From the NCBI GenBank assembly GCA_017449975.1, contig JAFSYK010000083.1:1-38842 (forward strand): a stretch of DNA of 38,842 nucleotides. The letters are read 5' to 3'. The position numbers and the translations under genes were made by a program. Under the pieces are notes generated by a model. The model had not been told where the DNA came from, searched no databases, and worked only from the letters and a program-made list of their open reading frames with translations. The DNA comes from Bacteroidales bacterium. GTDB taxonomy: Bacteria > Bacteroidota > Bacteroidia > Bacteroidales > P3. The first letter of the stretch is position 1. Every line of letters begins with the position of its first letter. This document shows positions 4,474-37,727 of this stretch, piece by piece.

Positions 4474-5529
4474 ATGAATACCATAATAGACAGCATTGAT
4501 CATATCCGTGAGGAGCGTGACATCAGCCGCGAGGTGCTGGAGCAGCTACTGACCACCGACGATGCGGAGGTGGTGGAGTACCTGCGCAAGAGTGCACGCG
4601 ACGTTGCCGACAGCATGTATGGCAAGCGTATCTTACTGCGGGGTCTCATCGAGATTTCCAGCCACTGCAAAAACGACTGTCTCTACTGCGGACTGCGCCG
4701 CAGCAACCGCGAGGCGGTACGCTACCGACTGACGGAAGAGGAAATCTACGACTGCTGCGAGCAGGGCTACCGACTGGGATTCCGCACCTTTGTGATGCAG
4801 GGTGGCGAGGACGGCTGGTTCAACGACGAACGCATGTGCCGCATTGTGCGCACCGTGCGCCAGCAATACCCCGACTGCGCCATCACGCTGTCGTTGGGCG
4901 AACGCAGTCGTGAGAGCTACCAAGCCCTCTACGACGCCGGCGCCAACCGCTACCTGCTGCGTCACGAGACCGCCGACGCCGAGCACTACGCCCGTCTGCA
5001 CCCCGCCGAGATGTCGTGGCAGCACCGCATCGACTGTCTCCACGCGCTGAAAGAGATTGGCTACCAGGTAGGTTGCGGTTTCATGGTAGGGTCGCCCTAC
5101 CAGACCTTCGACACCTTATACAAAGACCTGCAATTCTTACGGTCGTTCCAACCGCACATGGTGGGCATCGGTCCCTTCATCGCGGCACACAACACCCCCT
5201 TCGCCGATCAGCCCAACGGCAAGGTGAGTTACACGCTGCGGCTGCTCTCCATCATCCGACTGCTGCTGCCCAACGTGCTGCTGCCCGCCACCACGGCGCT
5301 GGGCACGCTGCATCCCAGGGGACGCGAGCAGGGCATCCTGCACGGCGCCAACGTGGTGATGCCCAACCTGTCGCCCCGCGAGCACCGCAAAGACTACGCC
5401 ATCTACGACAACAAGATATGCACCGGCGACGAAGCCGCCGAATGTCGCTCCTGCATGGAGATGCGGATGCGGGTCATCGGCTACGAGACCGTTGTGGACA
5501 GAGGGGACCACTTGGGAATTGAGAGTTGA
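4474..5529 (+). CDS. hydE: [FeFe]-hydrogenase maturation radical SAM protein HydE
   Basis: 351 residues, the usual HydE length. It is a radical SAM enzyme acting with HydG and HydF to build the di-iron subcluster of the [FeFe]-hydrogenase H-cluster in the cytoplasm. The SAM-cluster motif HCKNDCLYCG supplies Cys65, Cys69 and Cys72. The secondary-cluster motif CX7CX2C seen in many HydE proteins is also present near the C-terminus (CTGDEAAECRSC). The barrel motifs GLRRSN and VMQGGEDG support HydE rather than the related biotin synthase. The last codons (Ile-Glu-Ser-stop) lie inside a heptamer array, so the C-terminus is array-derived. hydG lies about 8 kb downstream on the same strand; hydF and the hydrogenase are not in the window. 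Confidence 0.95.
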   Translation: MNTIIDSIDHIREERDISREVLEQLLTTDDAEVVEYLRKSARDVADSMYGKRILLRGLIEISSHCKNDCLYCGLRRSNREAVRYRLTEEEIYDCCEQGYRLGFRTFVMQGGEDGWFNDERMCRIVRTVRQQYPDCAITLSLGERSRESYQALYDAGANRYLLRHETADAEHYARLHPAEMSWQHRIDCLHALKEIGYQVGCGFMVGSPYQTFDTLYKDLQFLRSFQPHMVGIGPFIAAHNTPFADQPNGKVSYTLRLLSIIRLLLPNVLLPATTALGTLHPRGREQGILHGANVVMPNLSPREHRKDYAIYDNKICTGDEAAECRSCMEMRMRVIGYETVVDRGDHLGIES

Positions 5530-5548
5530 GAATTGAGAGTTGATATTA
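5514..5548. repeat. Heptamer array overlapping the hydE stop codon
   Basis: Five 7-base words (GGGAATT, GAGAGTT, GAGAATT, GAGAGTT, GATATTA) begin inside the last codons of hydE, contain its TGA stop (5527-5529), and run up to the terminator. It is the same word class, on the opposite strand, as the TCTCAAT array at 25998 and the array at 37693. Confidence 0.75.
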
Positions 5549-23304: not shown

Positions 23305-23497
23305 GGTTATTGGTTAGGGGTTATTGGTTATTGAAGGGTTATTGGTTAGAGGTTATTGGTTATTGAAGGGTTATTGGTTAGAGGTTATTGGTTATTGAAG
23401 GGTTATTGGTTAGAGGTTATTGGTTATTGAAGGGTTAATGGTTAGGGGTTATTGGTTATTGAAGGGTTATTGGTTATTGGTTAGGGGTTATTGAGGG
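23305..23497. repeat. Higher-order tandem repeat: 32-bp unit of four GGTTATT heptamers plus GAAG
   Basis: Five 32-bp units start at 23305, 23337, 23369, 23401 and 23433. Each is four heptamers (GGTTATT, GGTTARR, GGTTATT, GGTTATT; one copy has GGTTAAT) followed by GAAG. A sixth, rearranged unit (23465-23495) ends in GAG. The array starts six bases from the sigma-54 activator ATG and fills most of the gap to dnaG. Confidence 0.95.
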
Positions 23498-23541
23498 TTT
23501 CGTAATAACGTTATTACGAAATTACGTTATTACGAGATTAC
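23498..23541. repeat. 24-bp palindrome and ACGTTATT octamers downstream of dnaG
   Basis: 23498-23521 is a perfect 24-bp palindrome with core CGTAATAACGTTATTACG. Octamers ACGTTATT, ACGAAATT, ACGTTATT, ACGAGATT run from 23508 to 23539, ending six bases from the dnaG stop. It could form a hairpin at the dnaG 3' end. 23508-23523 is identical to 9581-9596. Confidence 0.85.
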
Positions 23542-25728: not shown

Positions 25729-26226
25729 GTGACACGGAAAGAGATACTTGTATCGTTCTGCATCTGCCTATTGGCACTGTATAGCCACGCTGCCGCAGCA
25801 GGCGACGGTGACACGACAGCTGTCCGTGTAGGCGACCGCGTGCAGTTGTCTGAAAACCTGGGGCAGTGGGACTCCCCGGTGTGGTTTGCGGCACAGATGC
25901 ATGGCGGCGCCGCCTTTTTGGAACGCGACGGCATCCTGCTGGTGGTGCAAGAGTCGCCCAACGGTTTGGGGAACACGCCCTCTAGTACCAGCAAAACTCT
26001 CAATTCTCAATTCTCAATTCCCGATTCCACCACCAGCGCGGGCACCGCTACCACGCCTACCGGATGCGTTTCTCGGGCGCCAACAGCGGATGCACGCCAC
26101 AAGGCAGGGAGCGGACTGACGACTATGAGAACTACTACATCGGCCGCGACCGCACGCGCTGGGCGACGCATGTGCGGCGATACAACCGTGTGGACTATCC
26201 CAACCTTTACGACAACATCACGCTGA
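25729..26226 (+). pseudogene. N-terminal part of T9SS adhesin, out of frame with the rest
   Basis: Starts at GTG 25729 with a signal peptide (EILVSFCICLLALYSHAAAA). The next ~55 residues include QLSENLGQWDSPVWFAAQMH and GAAFLERDGILLVVQ, the typical opening of large Bacteroidota SBBP/PKD surface proteins. After about residue 75 the frame enters a heptamer array (25998-26025). Beyond it, this frame reads non-protein-like Thr/Ala/Arg-rich sequence to a stop at 26224, while the family sequence resumes in another frame (GHRYHAYRMRFSGAN). So this is the start of the gene at 26064-29555, broken by a frameshift at the array: pseudogene, phase-off state or sequencing error. Confidence 0.8.
25998..26025. 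repeat. Intragenic heptamer array TCTCAAT at the adhesin frameshift
   Basis: TCTCAAT at 25998-26004, 26005-26011 and 26012-26018, then the degenerate copy TCCCGAT (26019-26025). Because 7 is not a multiple of 3, each gain or loss of a unit changes the frame. Gain of one unit or loss of two would join the upstream frame to the downstream frame. Confidence 0.9.
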
Positions 26227-29200
26227 AGGTCTATGGAGCAGAACATGCGTTGAAATACGACTTGGTGGTACATCCCGGAGGCAACCCCGGTGACATCCAT
26301 ATCCAATACGAGGGGGCCGAAGGGCTGCGCATCAGCAACGGGAGACTGGTTGTCAAGACCTCGGTCAACGAGGTGGTCGAGCATCGACCCTACGCCTACC
26401 AGGTGATAAAGGGCGACACGGTGACCGTCGACGCCCGCTACCGACTGAAAGGGTCGCAGGTCACCTTTGTCGTAGGCGATTACGACACCAGCGAGCCACT
26501 CGTTATCGACCCCACGCTGGTCTTCTCCACCTATACCGGGTCGGGGGCCGACAACTGGGGCACCACCGCCACCTACGACTCCTACAAGAACACCTACACC
26601 GCTGGATTGGTCTTCAACATCGGCTATCCCGTCTCCGTGGGAGCCTACAGCGACAACTTCAGCGGCAACGCCGATATCGGCATCTTCAAATTCGACACCA
26701 CCGGCAGCCAGCGACTCTTCGCCACCTATCTGGGTGGCACCTATGCCGACATGCCGCACAGCATGTATGTCAACACTTTTGACGAGTTGCTCATCTTTGG
26801 CACCACGGGGTCGACAGACTTCCCCACCAGTCCCGATGCTTTGGACACCAGCTTCAACGGCGGCACCGAGCTGGCCTATCTCTGCTTCTACAACAGCGAA
26901 TACTACCGCAACATCTACTATCCCGACGGCAGCGACATCTTCGTGAGCCATTTCAGCAGTGACGGCAGCGCCCTGCTGGCCTCGACTTACGTGGGCGGCA
27001 GCGGCAACGACGGACTGAACTACCGTGCACGATACAACGACAATCCCGTCACCATCATGCAGGGCAACGACTCGCTCTACCACAATTACGGTGACGGCGC
27101 GCGGGGTGAGATTATCACCGACAACCTGAACAATGTCTACATCGGTTCGACCACCTTCTCCTACAACTTCCCCACCACTGCCAACGCCTGGCAGTGTGTC
27201 TCGGGTGGCCAGCAGGAGGGTGTGTTGCTGAAGCTGGACCACAACCTGCGCAACCTGCTGTGGAGCACTTACGTGGGTGGTTTCGAGGACGACGCCATCT
27301 ATTCCATCGACTGCGACGACGCCTACAATGTGGTAGCCTGCGGCGGCACCAATTCCGCAGGACTCCCGTTTCCGAGCGGCGGTGTGCAGCCTACCTTTGG
27401 TGGAGGCAGCGCCGACGGCATGGTGGTGAAGATTTCGGCCGGCGGCGACAGTCTGCTGGGCGCCACCTATTACGGGTCGCCCGCCTACGACCAGTGCTAC
27501 TTTGTGCGTTGCGGCAAACACAACGACATCTTCCTCTATGGACAGACGCAGGCTGAAGGCAGCACCATGGTCTACAACGCCACCTACAACACCCCGGGCG
27601 CCGGCATGCTGCTGGCACGACTGAGCGACGACCTGCAAAGCCGGGTGTGGAGCACTGTCTTCGGCACCCCCAACGAGACCCCCAACCTCTCCCCCACCGC
27701 TTTTGCCGCCGACATCTGCGACCGAGTCTATGCCGTGGGCTGGGGACGAGACTTTGTGGGCTACAACGGGGTGCAATGGAATACCGCCGGCACCTGGAAC
27801 ATGGCGACGACCGGCGACGCCTACCAGAGCAACACCGACGGACAGGACTTCTATATCATCTGCGTAGACAACACCGCATCGCAGCTGGAATACGCCACCT
27901 TCTTCGGTGAGCTGCACATCGAGAACAGCGACGGCGGCGGTGACCATGTGGACGGCGGCACCAGCCGTATCGACAGGTTGGCCACGCTGTACCAATCGGT
28001 ATGTGCCAGCTGTGGCGGCCACGACGCTTTCCCGACAACGCCGGGCGTTTGGTCGCAGCACAACAACAGCAGCAACTGCAACAACGCCCTGTTCCGCTTC
28101 AACATCCACGACGACTTCCCTGTGGCGGAGTTCGTCACACCACCCGCCGCCTGCGCCCCCTACACCGTGCATTTCCACAACACCGGCCGTGGCGAAAGCT
28201 TTACGTGGACCTTTGGCGACGGAGGCAGCGCCACCATAGCCAACCCCATACACACCTTCACCGATCCGGGCGAATATACGGTGCAGCTGGTGGCCACCAA
28301 AGCCGACGGCTGCAAGACCAGCGACACCGCTACCGCCATCGTGAAAGTCATCGGCAACACGCCGACCAGCCACCGCTACGACGTGTGCGACGGCGACCGA
28401 ATACAGATAGGCACCACACCGCTGCCCGGATGCATGTACCGATGGCGCGGCGGCACGGTGAGCGACAGCACCATCGCCAACCCTTACGTCACGGCTTCGG
28501 GTACCTACCTACTAGAGGTGCGCACCGCCGGCGCCCCTTGCGCGGAGGTCGACACCTTCCGGGTCTTATTCCGTCATCTCATCGACACGGTGCTGGTGAC
28601 CCCGCCAACTTGTCCCGGCGGCCACGACGGCAGCGCGACAGCAGTCACCTCGGGTGGCGGCAGCACGACGTATACCTACACCTGGGACGGCACCGCTACC
28701 AGTAGCGCACAATACGGTGGACTCAGTGACGACGGAGCGACACACACACTGCATGTCACCGACGGCGTATGCGAGAGCAGCTACAGCTTCACCATTGCCC
28801 CGCTGCCCCGACCCATAATCCGCCACACCTACACCAGACAGATATGTGAAGACTGCACAGGCGAGATAGCCGTTACCGTCGACGGCAGCGGCGACTATAG
28901 CGGACTGTGGGACGATGGTGCCACAGGTATGCAGCGCGACAGCCTCTGTGCGGGCAGCTACGGTGTCACCATCAGCGACACGAACGGCTGCACCTACCGC
29001 GACAGCGCCACCATCCAGCTGGTCACCCTTGCCGACAGCCTGCGGGCGTGGGCCGACGACACCGTGCTATTCGTTGGAAACCAGACCCGGCTGCATGTCA
29101 CCGAGGCGGCTGGCGCCACCTATCTGTGGATGCCGGGCGAAGGACTGGACAACCCGATGGCGACCAACCCCGTTGCCAGTCCGTCGGCCGACATAACCTA

Positions 29201-29555
29201 CAGTGTGACACGCAGCGACACGACAGGCTGCCAATACACAGCCCGCGTGACGCTGCACTGCAGCGCCATCGACTGTGGCGAGAGTCTGCTCTTTATACCC
29301 AACACCTTCACTCCCAACGACGACGGCTACAACGACCGGCTCTGCTTCCGCAGCGAGAACATCAGCGCCTTCCATATCGCCATCTTCTCTCGTTGGGGCG
29401 AGAAAGTATACGAATCCTATGACCCTTCGGACTGCTGGGACGGCCGCTATCACGGCAACCCCTGTTTGCCGGGCGTCTACTACTACACCTGCCACATCCG
29501 CTGCGCCAACAACCAAGAGAACGACTTGAAAGGAGATGTGACACTGATAAGATGA
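26064..29555 (+). CDS. Large T9SS surface adhesin (SBBP, PKD, SprB repeats), body of a frameshifted gene
   Basis: 1163 residues from the first ATG (26064), but the frame is open from 25986 and family-like sequence is visible a few codons earlier (GHRYHAYRMRF), so this ATG is probably not the real start; the signal peptide lies in the out-of-frame fragment at 25729. Order: an N-terminal domain (YENYYIGRDRTRWATHV), SBBP-type beta-propeller repeats (PTLVFSTYTGSGADNWG and similar, to about 640), a PKD domain (FTWTFGDGG, about 710), a SprB-like repeat (CPGGHDGSATAV) and a C-terminal gliding-motility-associated domain (IPNTFTPNDDGYND to the end), which is the T9SS type B signal. As written it lacks a signal peptide and would not be secreted. 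The USP-like gene starts 26 bases after its stop. Confidence 0.88.
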   Translation: MRFSGANSGCTPQGRERTDDYENYYIGRDRTRWATHVRRYNRVDYPNLYDNITLKVYGAEHALKYDLVVHPGGNPGDIHIQYEGAEGLRISNGRLVVKTSVNEVVEHRPYAYQVIKGDTVTVDARYRLKGSQVTFVVGDYDTSEPLVIDPTLVFSTYTGSGADNWGTTATYDSYKNTYTAGLVFNIGYPVSVGAYSDNFSGNADIGIFKFDTTGSQRLFATYLGGTYADMPHSMYVNTFDELLIFGTTGSTDFPTSPDALDTSFNGGTELAYLCFYNSEYYRNIYYPDGSDIFVSHFSSDGSALLASTYVGGSGNDGLNYRARYNDNPVTIMQGNDSLYHNYGDGARGEIITDNLNNVYIGSTTFSYNFPTTANAWQCVSGGQQEGVLLKLDHNLRNLLWSTYVGGFEDDAIYSIDCDDAYNVVACGGTNSAGLPFPSGGVQPTFGGGSADGMVVKISAGGDSLLGATYYGSPAYDQCYFVRCGKHNDIFLYGQTQAEGSTMVYNATYNTPGAGMLLARLSDDLQSRVWSTVFGTPNETPNLSPTAFAADICDRVYAVGWGRDFVGYNGVQWNTAGTWNMATTGDAYQSNTDGQDFYIICVDNTASQLEYATFFGELHIENSDGGGDHVDGGTSRIDRLATLYQSVCASCGGHDAFPTTPGVWSQHNNSSNCNNALFRFNIHDDFPVAEFVTPPAACAPYTVHFHNTGRGESFTWTFGDGGSATIANPIHTFTDPGEYTVQLVATKADGCKTSDTATAIVKVIGNTPTSHRYDVCDGDRIQIGTTPLPGCMYRWRGGTVSDSTIANPYVTASGTYLLEVRTAGAPCAEVDTFRVLFRHLIDTVLVTPPTCPGGHDGSATAVTSGGGSTTYTYTWDGTATSSAQYGGLSDDGATHTLHVTDGVCESSYSFTIAPLPRPIIRHTYTRQICEDCTGEIAVTVDGSGDYSGLWDDGATGMQRDSLCAGSYGVTISDTNGCTYRDSATIQLVTLADSLRAWADDTVLFVGNQTRLHVTEAAGATYLWMPGEGLDNPMATNPVASPSADITYSVTRSDTTGCQYTARVTLHCSAIDCGESLLFIPNTFTPNDDGYNDRLCFRSENISAFHIAIFSRWGEKVYESYDPSDCWDGRYHGNPCLPGVYYYTCHIRCANNQENDLKGDVTLIR

Positions 29556-36358: not shown

Positions 36359-37690
36359 TTATTTCTTTTTGGCCATCATCATGGCGCGGACTTTGTTCTT
36401 GCCGAGACGAATCTCGTCGGTCAGCGGCTTATTGGCGGGACAGCTGAAGAAGCAGCATCCGCACTCGATACAATCGAGGATGTTGCGCTGCTGCGCCTCC
36501 TCGATGCGGTTGTTGCGCACCAATGCCGAAAAGAGGTAGGGTTCCAGACCCATCGGGCATCCCTCTGCACATTTGCCACAGCGGATGCAGGCTGTTTCAG
36601 GCTTGCGCCTTGCTTCTTTCTCATCCATCACCAGCACACTGCTGGCACCCTTGGTGGTGGGAGCGTCGAGGTTGCACACCGCCTTACCCATCATAGGACC
36701 ACCACTGATGACCTTGCCGGTAGTCTCGGGCAGCGAGCCGAGTGCATGACGGATGATATCATTATAGGTGATACCGATACGTACCTGGTAGTTGTGCTGT
36801 GACGGCAACGCCTTACCGGTGACGGTGAGAATATTCTCGATAAGGGGTTTGTTCTTCTGGATGGCCTCGTAGACCGCAAAGGCGGTACCCACGTTGCTCA
36901 CCACGCAGCCCACGTCGATAGGCAGCTTGCCGCTGGGAACACGACGGCCCGTGATAGCGTTGATCAGCTGTTTCTCGGCGCCCTGCGGATATTTCACCTT
37001 GAGCGGCTCAACGGCAATGCCTTCGAACTGACTGGCCATGGCTTTCATCACGGCAATGGGTTCGGGCTTGTTGTTCTCGATACCGATATAGGCCATCGGG
37101 ACACCCAACGCCTTGCGCAGGATGCTGACGCCGATGCAGATCTCCTCGGCATGCTCGAGCATCACACGGTGATCGGAGGTGAGGTAGGGCTCACACTCGA
37201 CTGCGTTGATGATAAGGTACTCCGCCTTCTTTCCCGGAGGCACGGCATACTTGATGTGGGCGGGGAATGTAGCACCACCCAAACCAACAATGCCCATCTC
37301 TTTCAACTTGTCGACAATCTCGGTCGGCGTGAGGTCACACTGCCGCTTGATTTCCGGCGTGCGGTCGATGGTCTCCACCCACTCGTCGCCCTGTACCTGA
37401 ATATAGACAGCGGGTTTGGCCAAGCCGAAAGCATCCTTGCAGCTTTCGACCTTCAGCACCGTTCCGCTGACGGGCGAATGAACATTGGCGCACATGAAGG
37501 TCTGTGCCTCGCCGATGAGCTGACCCACTTTCACCTGGTCGCCCTTGGCCACCACTGGCGTAGCGGGGGCGCCAAGGTGTTGGTTCATGAGCACTACAAC
37601 CTGTTCGGGCAGCGGCATCTGTTCGATAACCGCCTGCGTCGATATTTTATTTTCTTCGGGGTGGACACCACCCATTGGGAAAGTCTTCAT
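36359..37690 (-). CDS. rnfC: Rnf electron transport complex subunit C
   Basis: 443 residues, peripheral cytoplasmic subunit holding the NADH/FMN site and two [4Fe-4S] clusters. Visible: the start FPMGGVHPEENK, the Gly-rich NADH/FMN-binding region VGLGGATFPAHIKY (about 134-147), a SLBB-like region, and ferredoxin motifs CIRCGKCAEGCP (about 382-393) and CIECGCCFFSCP (about 421-432). It receives or donates electrons to NAD(H). The length is typical for short RnfC forms lacking the long Ala-rich tail of enterobacteria. Its start is separated from the rnfB stop only by a heptamer array. Confidence 0.96.
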   Translation of the reverse strand: MKTFPMGGVHPEENKISTQAVIEQMPLPEQVVVLMNQHLGAPATPVVAKGDQVKVGQLIGEAQTFMCANVHSPVSGTVLKVESCKDAFGLAKPAVYIQVQGDEWVETIDRTPEIKRQCDLTPTEIVDKLKEMGIVGLGGATFPAHIKYAVPPGKKAEYLIINAVECEPYLTSDHRVMLEHAEEICIGVSILRKALGVPMAYIGIENNKPEPIAVMKAMASQFEGIAVEPLKVKYPQGAEKQLINAITGRRVPSGKLPIDVGCVVSNVGTAFAVYEAIQKNKPLIENILTVTGKALPSQHNYQVRIGITYNDIIRHALGSLPETTGKVISGGPMMGKAVCNLDAPTTKGASSVLVMDEKEARRKPETACIRCGKCAEGCPMGLEPYLFSALVRNNRIEEAQQRNILDCIECGCCFFSCPANKPLTDEIRLGKNKVRAMMMAKKK

Positions 37691-37692
37691 CT

Positions 37693-37727
37693 ATTCAAAT
37701 TGAGAATTGAGTGTTGAGAACTGAGAT
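37693..37727. repeat. Heptamer array filling the rnfB-rnfC gap
   Basis: Five 7-base words (TTCAAAT is degenerate; then TTGAGAA, TTGAGTG, TTGAGAA, CTGAGAT on the plus strand) occupy all but two bases between the rnfC start (37690) and the rnfB stop (37728). Same class as 5514 and 25998. Confidence 0.75.

Follow-up and report, generated by a model that had tools for sequence, protein, structure and literature searches.

A TCTCAAT heptamer array at the frame break of a split T9SS cargo gene belongs to a repeat family found between and within genes of a Bacteroidales genus

Results

A T9SS cargo gene divided between two frames

The window analysed here, a stretch of 38,842 nucleotides, is the entire contig C55 of a draft genome (G000) of 2.31 Mb in 103 contigs. 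It contains a gene for a putative T9SS type-B cargo protein that is distributed over two ORFs lying in two different frames (Table 1). A single DUF7948 domain is shared between them, with profile positions 3-51 in the first frame (20.3 bits, below the cut-off of 27) and positions 53-214 in the second (200.4 bits). This confirms the original prediction that the signal peptide and first domain are separated from the remainder by a change of frame. The signal peptide of the upstream ORF was called by eye and none was seen in the downstream ORF, the open frame of which extends back beyond the array to 25986, with homology from 26022. The assignment of a T9SS surface-display domain to the second frame is borne out by matches above cut-off to TIGR04131 (47.5 bits, cut-off 35) and CHU_C (60.6 bits, cut-off 27), accompanied by a SprB match slightly under its cut-off (27.2 bits against 28). 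Of the T9SS machinery SprA was searched and found in the genome (2438 bits, G000:C47). The domain make-up of DUF7948, PKD, SprB and CHU_C and the conservation in the genus are those of T9SS type-B cargo. This copy differs in being encoded in two frames, so that in the assembled allele no single frame holds both signal peptide and sorting domain. From the domains we infer that the protein is an adhesin.

Table 1. Positions of the split gene, its array and related arrays in the window
Feature	Position	Strand	Basis or remarks
Upstream ORF	25729..26226	+	GTG start, 165 aa; signal peptide and N-terminal DUF7948, out-of-frame residues past the array
Frame-change zone	~25957..26021	+	Approximate end of first-frame homology to start of second-frame homology (RFHHQR)
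Three perfect TCTCAAT units	25998..26018	+	TRF 25998-26020, 3.3 copies
Degenerate fourth unit TCCCGAT	26019..26025	+	Sequence
Downstream ORF	26064..29555	+	1163 aa; remaining DUF7948, PKD, SprB repeat, CHU_C / T9SS type-B sorting domain
DUF7948, profile positions 53-214	26034..26516	+	Profile match
PKD_4 domain	28119..28343	+	Profile match
CHU_C (T9SS type-B sorting) domain	29292..29534	+	Profile match
Related degenerate array (TTGAGAATTGAGAG)	5512..5543	+	3' end of ORF 4474-5529
Related degenerate array AATTGAG (rotation of ATTGAGA)	37698..37726	-	77% matches; ends ~7 nt before the start of minus-strand ORF 36359-37690

In the assembly both the array and the break in frame are genuine, the array being a tandem repeat with a non-triplet unit at a frame junction, as in phase-variable genes. 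Compared with the closest relative, first-frame homology stops near QES (25956) and second-frame homology restarts at RFHHQRGHRYH (26022), with the array in between. The break had been placed exactly at the array; the array does lie in the linker at the junction, but since homology ends before it, the break could also fall in the approximately 40 non-repeat bases that precede it. The calculation that one more unit or two fewer would yield one continuous protein of about 1270 residues holds. Elsewhere in the window a 32-bp unit is repeated 6.1 times between two genes (23305-23499), and many short tandem arrays are located in the spacers.

The gene in related genomes

Relatives at the protein level include rumen and faecal Bacteroidales metagenome-assembled genomes, among them bacterium P3 (Candidatus Hemicellulosilyticus sp. 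P3 in the NCBI taxonomy) and Candidatus Colimorpha merdihippi (Candidatus Colimorpha being placed in Bacteroidales incertae sedis). When the locus is compared across the genus, the gene proves to be conserved but the array does not: the best match is free of internal stops in all 36 same-genus relatives searched, while the array is absent from the linker of all 29 relatives aligned there, the scanned stretch containing no TCTCAAT unit. Two of these 29 have a single ATTGAGA farther upstream. In six of the 36 (G003, G005, G011, G033, G034 and G035) the match is split into several pieces of one longer open frame. Bacterium P3 reads through the same stretch in a single frame, which stays open for 1286 codons and contains the linker EAPPNGGAADSNGRGLPARFHHQRGHRYH.

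The long part of the gene is open throughout and shares 74% identity with its closest homologue, found in G031, with differences of 0.188, 0.174 and 0.536 at codon positions 1, 2 and 3 (1176 codons). This third-position bias, together with the open frame, indicates that the break is either recent or not real. The short 5' part is 51% identical to the closest relative over 55 codons, with differences of 0.364, 0.291 and 0.545 by codon position. In PurL and IleRS this genome has nearer relatives than G031, which suggests that the split gene may have a history of its own. No second full-length copy occurs in this genome among the matches listed (eight were found in all), the other listed row being a match to the sorting domain, and one pattern scan of viral contigs revealed no copy of the locus.

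The TCTCAAT repeat family

The three-unit pattern has 23 overlapping matches in the 2.31 Mb genome and its reversed, non-complemented counterpart has none, and it is thus not a product of chance. The two-unit pattern gives 77 overlapping matches, again with none for the reversed control, which merge into 54 arrays. Among the 53 arrays examined 36 have two units, 12 have three and five have four; none is longer. A single heptamer is hence present in this genome as numerous short direct arrays. Across the genus, 29 of 60 genomes, this one included, have arrays of three units; the reversed control also matched in 11 of the 60, which suggests repeats of other heptamers there. In some assemblies the sequence stops at an array or close to one, and G025:C62 ends inside one. 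A 26-base motif found beside three arrays was considered as a general vehicle of the repeat and rejected, as it occurs five times in the genome. Our search of the literature for the TCTCAAT repeat in this group, its nucleotide and peptide letters included, found no report.

Thirty of the 53 arrays overlap called genes. Of these, 27 are in sense orientation, distributed over 24 genes, and the other three cover the 3' end of an oppositely oriented gene, whose stop codon the array provides. Eight non-genic arrays (L116, L119, L124, L129, L131, L137, L138:4099 and L150) end 4-18 nt ahead of the called start codon of a gene that runs in the same direction, as has been described for TAACTGA repeats, and three more lie at most 18 nt from the end of an opposing gene. 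Gene starts are approximate, since genes were called with a home-made caller based on hexamer scores. In the TCTCAAT orientation the repeat contains no stop in any frame and all frames encode the same cyclic heptapeptide, SQFSILN, whereas the complement carries TGA. An array can therefore sit on the sense strand of a gene when the insert keeps the frame.

Arrays inside genes

Twenty of the 24 array-bearing genes were scanned against NCBIfam (E up to 1e-10), two of which had no family. Matches above curated cut-offs identify IleRS, PurL, HtpG, Ddl, an SdhA-like protein, NqrA, QueG, GH92, a radical SAM protein, an ABC-F protein, a T9SS type-A tail and a choice-of-anchor J domain; similarity below cut-off was found to the MurL, SusC/RagA, DltB, patatin and hydroxyacylglutathione hydrolase families. 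The repeat is thus not preferentially located in contingency (surface) genes. The array before QueG (L147) and the L152 pair may instead lie in a leader sequence or where genes overlap. In the SusC/RagA-like protein the array codes for part of a likely signal peptide (L125:2102-2200).

In PurL and IleRS, the two genes tested for this, the array forms an in-frame insert in a conserved gene that is absent from relatives, which often have repetitive peptides of another kind in that position. Around the IleRS array about 23 residues fall in gaps of the structure 8c8w. Of 53 relatives matched at this loop 29 were compared, and SQFSILN is absent from all 29; two (G004 and G001) have the degenerate FQFSIFN, three have KDLKDAKDLKD, one has LSDLSDLSDKSD and six have a short loop. 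The loop, which precedes WTTTPWTLP, is hypervariable, with different repetitive peptides in different species (L276-L305). Likewise, SQFSILN is missing from all 44 other PurL loci compared, several of which have different repetitive linkers. Measured against solved structures, the insert status of HtpG, NqrA and Ddl is less clear than that of IleRS. For HtpG there is a 9-residue gap in 2iop immediately ahead of the array residues and for NqrA there are two gaps of 6 and 2 residues; Ddl shows no net insert against 4fu0, so that its array-encoded residues occupy a segment of normal length. Two further cases of coding repeats were seen in other genomes, in both of which the family was assigned by eye. 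Array peptides stand at seemingly the same place of a FolC-like protein in G021, G010 and G075 (L202, L252 and L257), and in G025 an inverted-pair form of the repeat lies in frame within a LeuRS-like gene (L275:2033).

Frame breaks at arrays

Called genes hold arrays in frame by construction and the 27 sense-strand arrays alone are thus no proof that breaks are rare. For this reason the flanks of arrays were tested directly. In a strict test of 219 arrays from nine genomes, which covered part of the arrays of G030, G010, G075, G017, G036 and G025 and all but one contig of G027, 34 arrays lie in frame inside a single gene, 22 lie between two genes and 160 have a non-coding flank. The test misses intragenic arrays, as 14 of the 27 in this genome pass it. 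Three rows are break-like, at two loci, L152 and the window. L152 was rejected as a second break because it consists of two overlapping ABC-transporter genes, and by our reading the window holds the one true frame break among the 219 arrays. In a further flank test, of the 27 sense-strand arrays, four had different best frames on their two sides (L128:4899, L133:2501 and both arrays of L152), which reflects weak scores, a gene end and a gene overlap, and for two more (L125 and L147) the upstream frame was not open.

We also scanned 251,155 bp of this genome, for the most part centred on arrays, for changes of frame and obtained seven same-strand junctions. Six of these were read as gene overlaps from sequence and coordinates (L123 was checked), which leaves that of the window. 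A retrained version of the scan missed the window junction by placing a non-coding gap at the array, and the flank test was used instead. Split PurL genes in G010 and G030 were rejected as breaks since the splits are runs of N. The frames of PurL in G019 (L186, around 1900) are broken without an array, perhaps by a small deletion or an assembly error.

Array length and inverted pairs

G021 and G027 are sister species with 93% identical PurL DNA. Seven array-bearing stretches were paired between them, six of which were read as outside genes. In all six the arrays differ at one spot at least, some by exactly 7 bases; in L207/L227 a base change alters the count of perfect units. The two coding arrays in the remaining pair (L212/L218), a four-unit array that passes the strict test and a three-unit array read as coding by eye, are identical between the two species. 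These differences demonstrate change on the time scale of species and not a switch.

In G021, G027 and a few other genomes, arrays are paired, with ATTGAGA arms, a loop and TCTCAAT arms. Such inverted pairs of the form (ATTGAGA)n, loop, (TCTCAAT)n are found at L200, L203, L207, L221, L226 and L229 of the two sister species, and the opposite order hardly occurs. Of the 219 arrays, 50 have an ATTGAGA or ATTGAAA partner within 80 nt on the upstream side and two on the downstream side (40 and one, respectively, for ATTGAGA alone), counts in which both arms of a pair may each be included. In this genome three of 53 arrays have an upstream partner within 80 nt, all of them ATTGAAA and none ATTGAGA, and the window array has no inverted partner within that distance.

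Discussion

The array at the frame break is one copy of a TCTCAAT family that occurs throughout the genus, both between and within genes, and that can occupy loops and linkers in a number of core enzymes where the insert leaves the frame intact. In the present gene the array is found in the variable DUF7948 linker of a conserved cargo protein, at a total length that fails to preserve the frame. The assembled allele is predicted to produce a short exported fragment that lacks the sorting domain and a long part that lacks the signal peptide, and would in effect be off. As to cause and age, we suggest that the frame change was recent and came about by an insertion or by gain or loss of repeat units. 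On balance, we consider it probable that a tolerant linker acquired an insertion or changed in length and that a recent frameshift (off) allele resulted, the simplest form of which is a loss-of-function or strain-level allele and not a dedicated switch. Against this explanation stands the genus-wide conservation of the gene, which would make its loss unusual and which favours a cause in the assembly or the population consensus, or a revertible allele.

The first of these alternatives, an assembly or consensus error at the array in a gene that is really in frame, has a minor but appreciable chance of being correct. It would agree with the unbroken state of the gene in all relatives searched, with our seeing no other lesion in the gene, with the draft nature of an assembly in 103 contigs and with the location of some arrays at contig ends in other assemblies. 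However, in the same assembly 14 other arrays are flanked on either side by coding sequence in a single frame, and its sole break-like locus apart from the window is the gene overlap at L152. By our reading no other true break exists in the 251 kb scanned, on which ground we rejected a general frameshift error of the assembly. Moreover, an array of 28 bases is short compared with usual reads, which also counts against such an error.

Reversible phase variation, in which slipped-strand gain or loss of units toggles the surface protein and the assembly has caught the off state, seems rather unlikely to us. The original prediction of a candidate phase switch does find some backing: the unit length is not a multiple of three, the protein has a T9SS sorting domain and the long part is otherwise open, and family arrays outside genes differ between sister species, partly in 7-base steps. 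The gene hmw1a of Haemophilus influenzae PittAA provides a precedent for a frame-shifted gene with an intragenic heptamer array; like the present gene, it encodes a surface protein and has a non-triplet repeat at the frame break (14 units; cited part of PMC2651432). But the differences in length seen here are differences between species, each represented by one genome. The three perfect units seen here compare with 14 in hmw1a and 13-38 in hmw promoters, and in the part of the H. influenzae survey on which we draw, three units are just its permissive listing threshold, heptamer tracts with a stated length having 13-38 (PMC2651432). The 53 arrays of this genome have at most four units each, both coding arrays compared between the sister species are unchanged and, by our reading, no second array among the 219 sits at a true frame break. 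Furthermore, the repeat is common to housekeeping genes, including core enzymes in which frequent switching would presumably be harmful. A dedicated switch, although conceivable, is therefore not our preferred reading; the array, with its three perfect units, is short and falls within the range of two to four units of its siblings.

That programmed ribosomal frameshifting over the array yields the full protein is highly improbable. A -1 shift would connect the frames and both parts look coding, but the zone, read in frame and inspected by eye, lacks a slippery X XXY YYZ heptamer of classical form, and all 36 relatives use one frame.

The closest known systems, which the repeat may be said to resemble, are the TAACTGA heptamers, the Rickettsia palindromic elements and the heptamer simple sequence repeats of H. 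influenzae. TAACTGA direct repeats occur in marine Beggiatoaceae, cyanobacteria and some Bacteroidetes (MacGregor 2015, cited in part, PMC4679880). As far as that account is cited here, they too form short direct arrays, which contain stops when read in one orientation and encode an open heptapeptide when read in the opposite one; many lie beside start codons, and overlap with stop codons as well as some copies in ORFs are described (PMC4679880). Apart from the different heptamer, they appear from the same part of the account to be mostly intergenic and, within genes, to lie mainly at protein ends (PMC4679880), whereas 27 of 53 arrays here are on the sense strand of called genes, core-enzyme loops included, and some genomes of the present genus pair their arrays as inverted repeats. 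Rickettsia palindromic elements are 105-146 bp long with inverted ends, and 19 reading frames are cited for them in the portion of a review used here (PMC2229807). They have in common with the present family in-frame translation within conserved genes along with intergenic copies (same portion, PMC2229807), and some copies in the present genus likewise form inverted repeats. In contrast to these elements as there described, the unit here is 7 bp and the array 21-28 bp, nearly always without an inverted partner in this genome.

In our view the more interesting result is a repeat family that feeds the loops of housekeeping proteins. We tentatively propose, as a possible if doubtful generalization, that self-propagating short repeats, heptamers and others, some of them paired as hairpins, seed and rewrite loops and linkers of essential enzymes in frame in this gut Bacteroidales genus, and that out-of-frame copies, such as the present one, turn surface genes off in a perhaps reversible manner. 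The finding of a heptamer where a frame is broken does not by itself point to a phase switch, and the genomic background of the repeat needs to be counted first. If the in-frame reading is right, a repeat that encodes the same peptide in all frames can occupy loops of IleRS, PurL, HtpG and NqrA without introducing a stop, and the genus would be a natural laboratory for selfish-looking repeats that turn into protein sequence.
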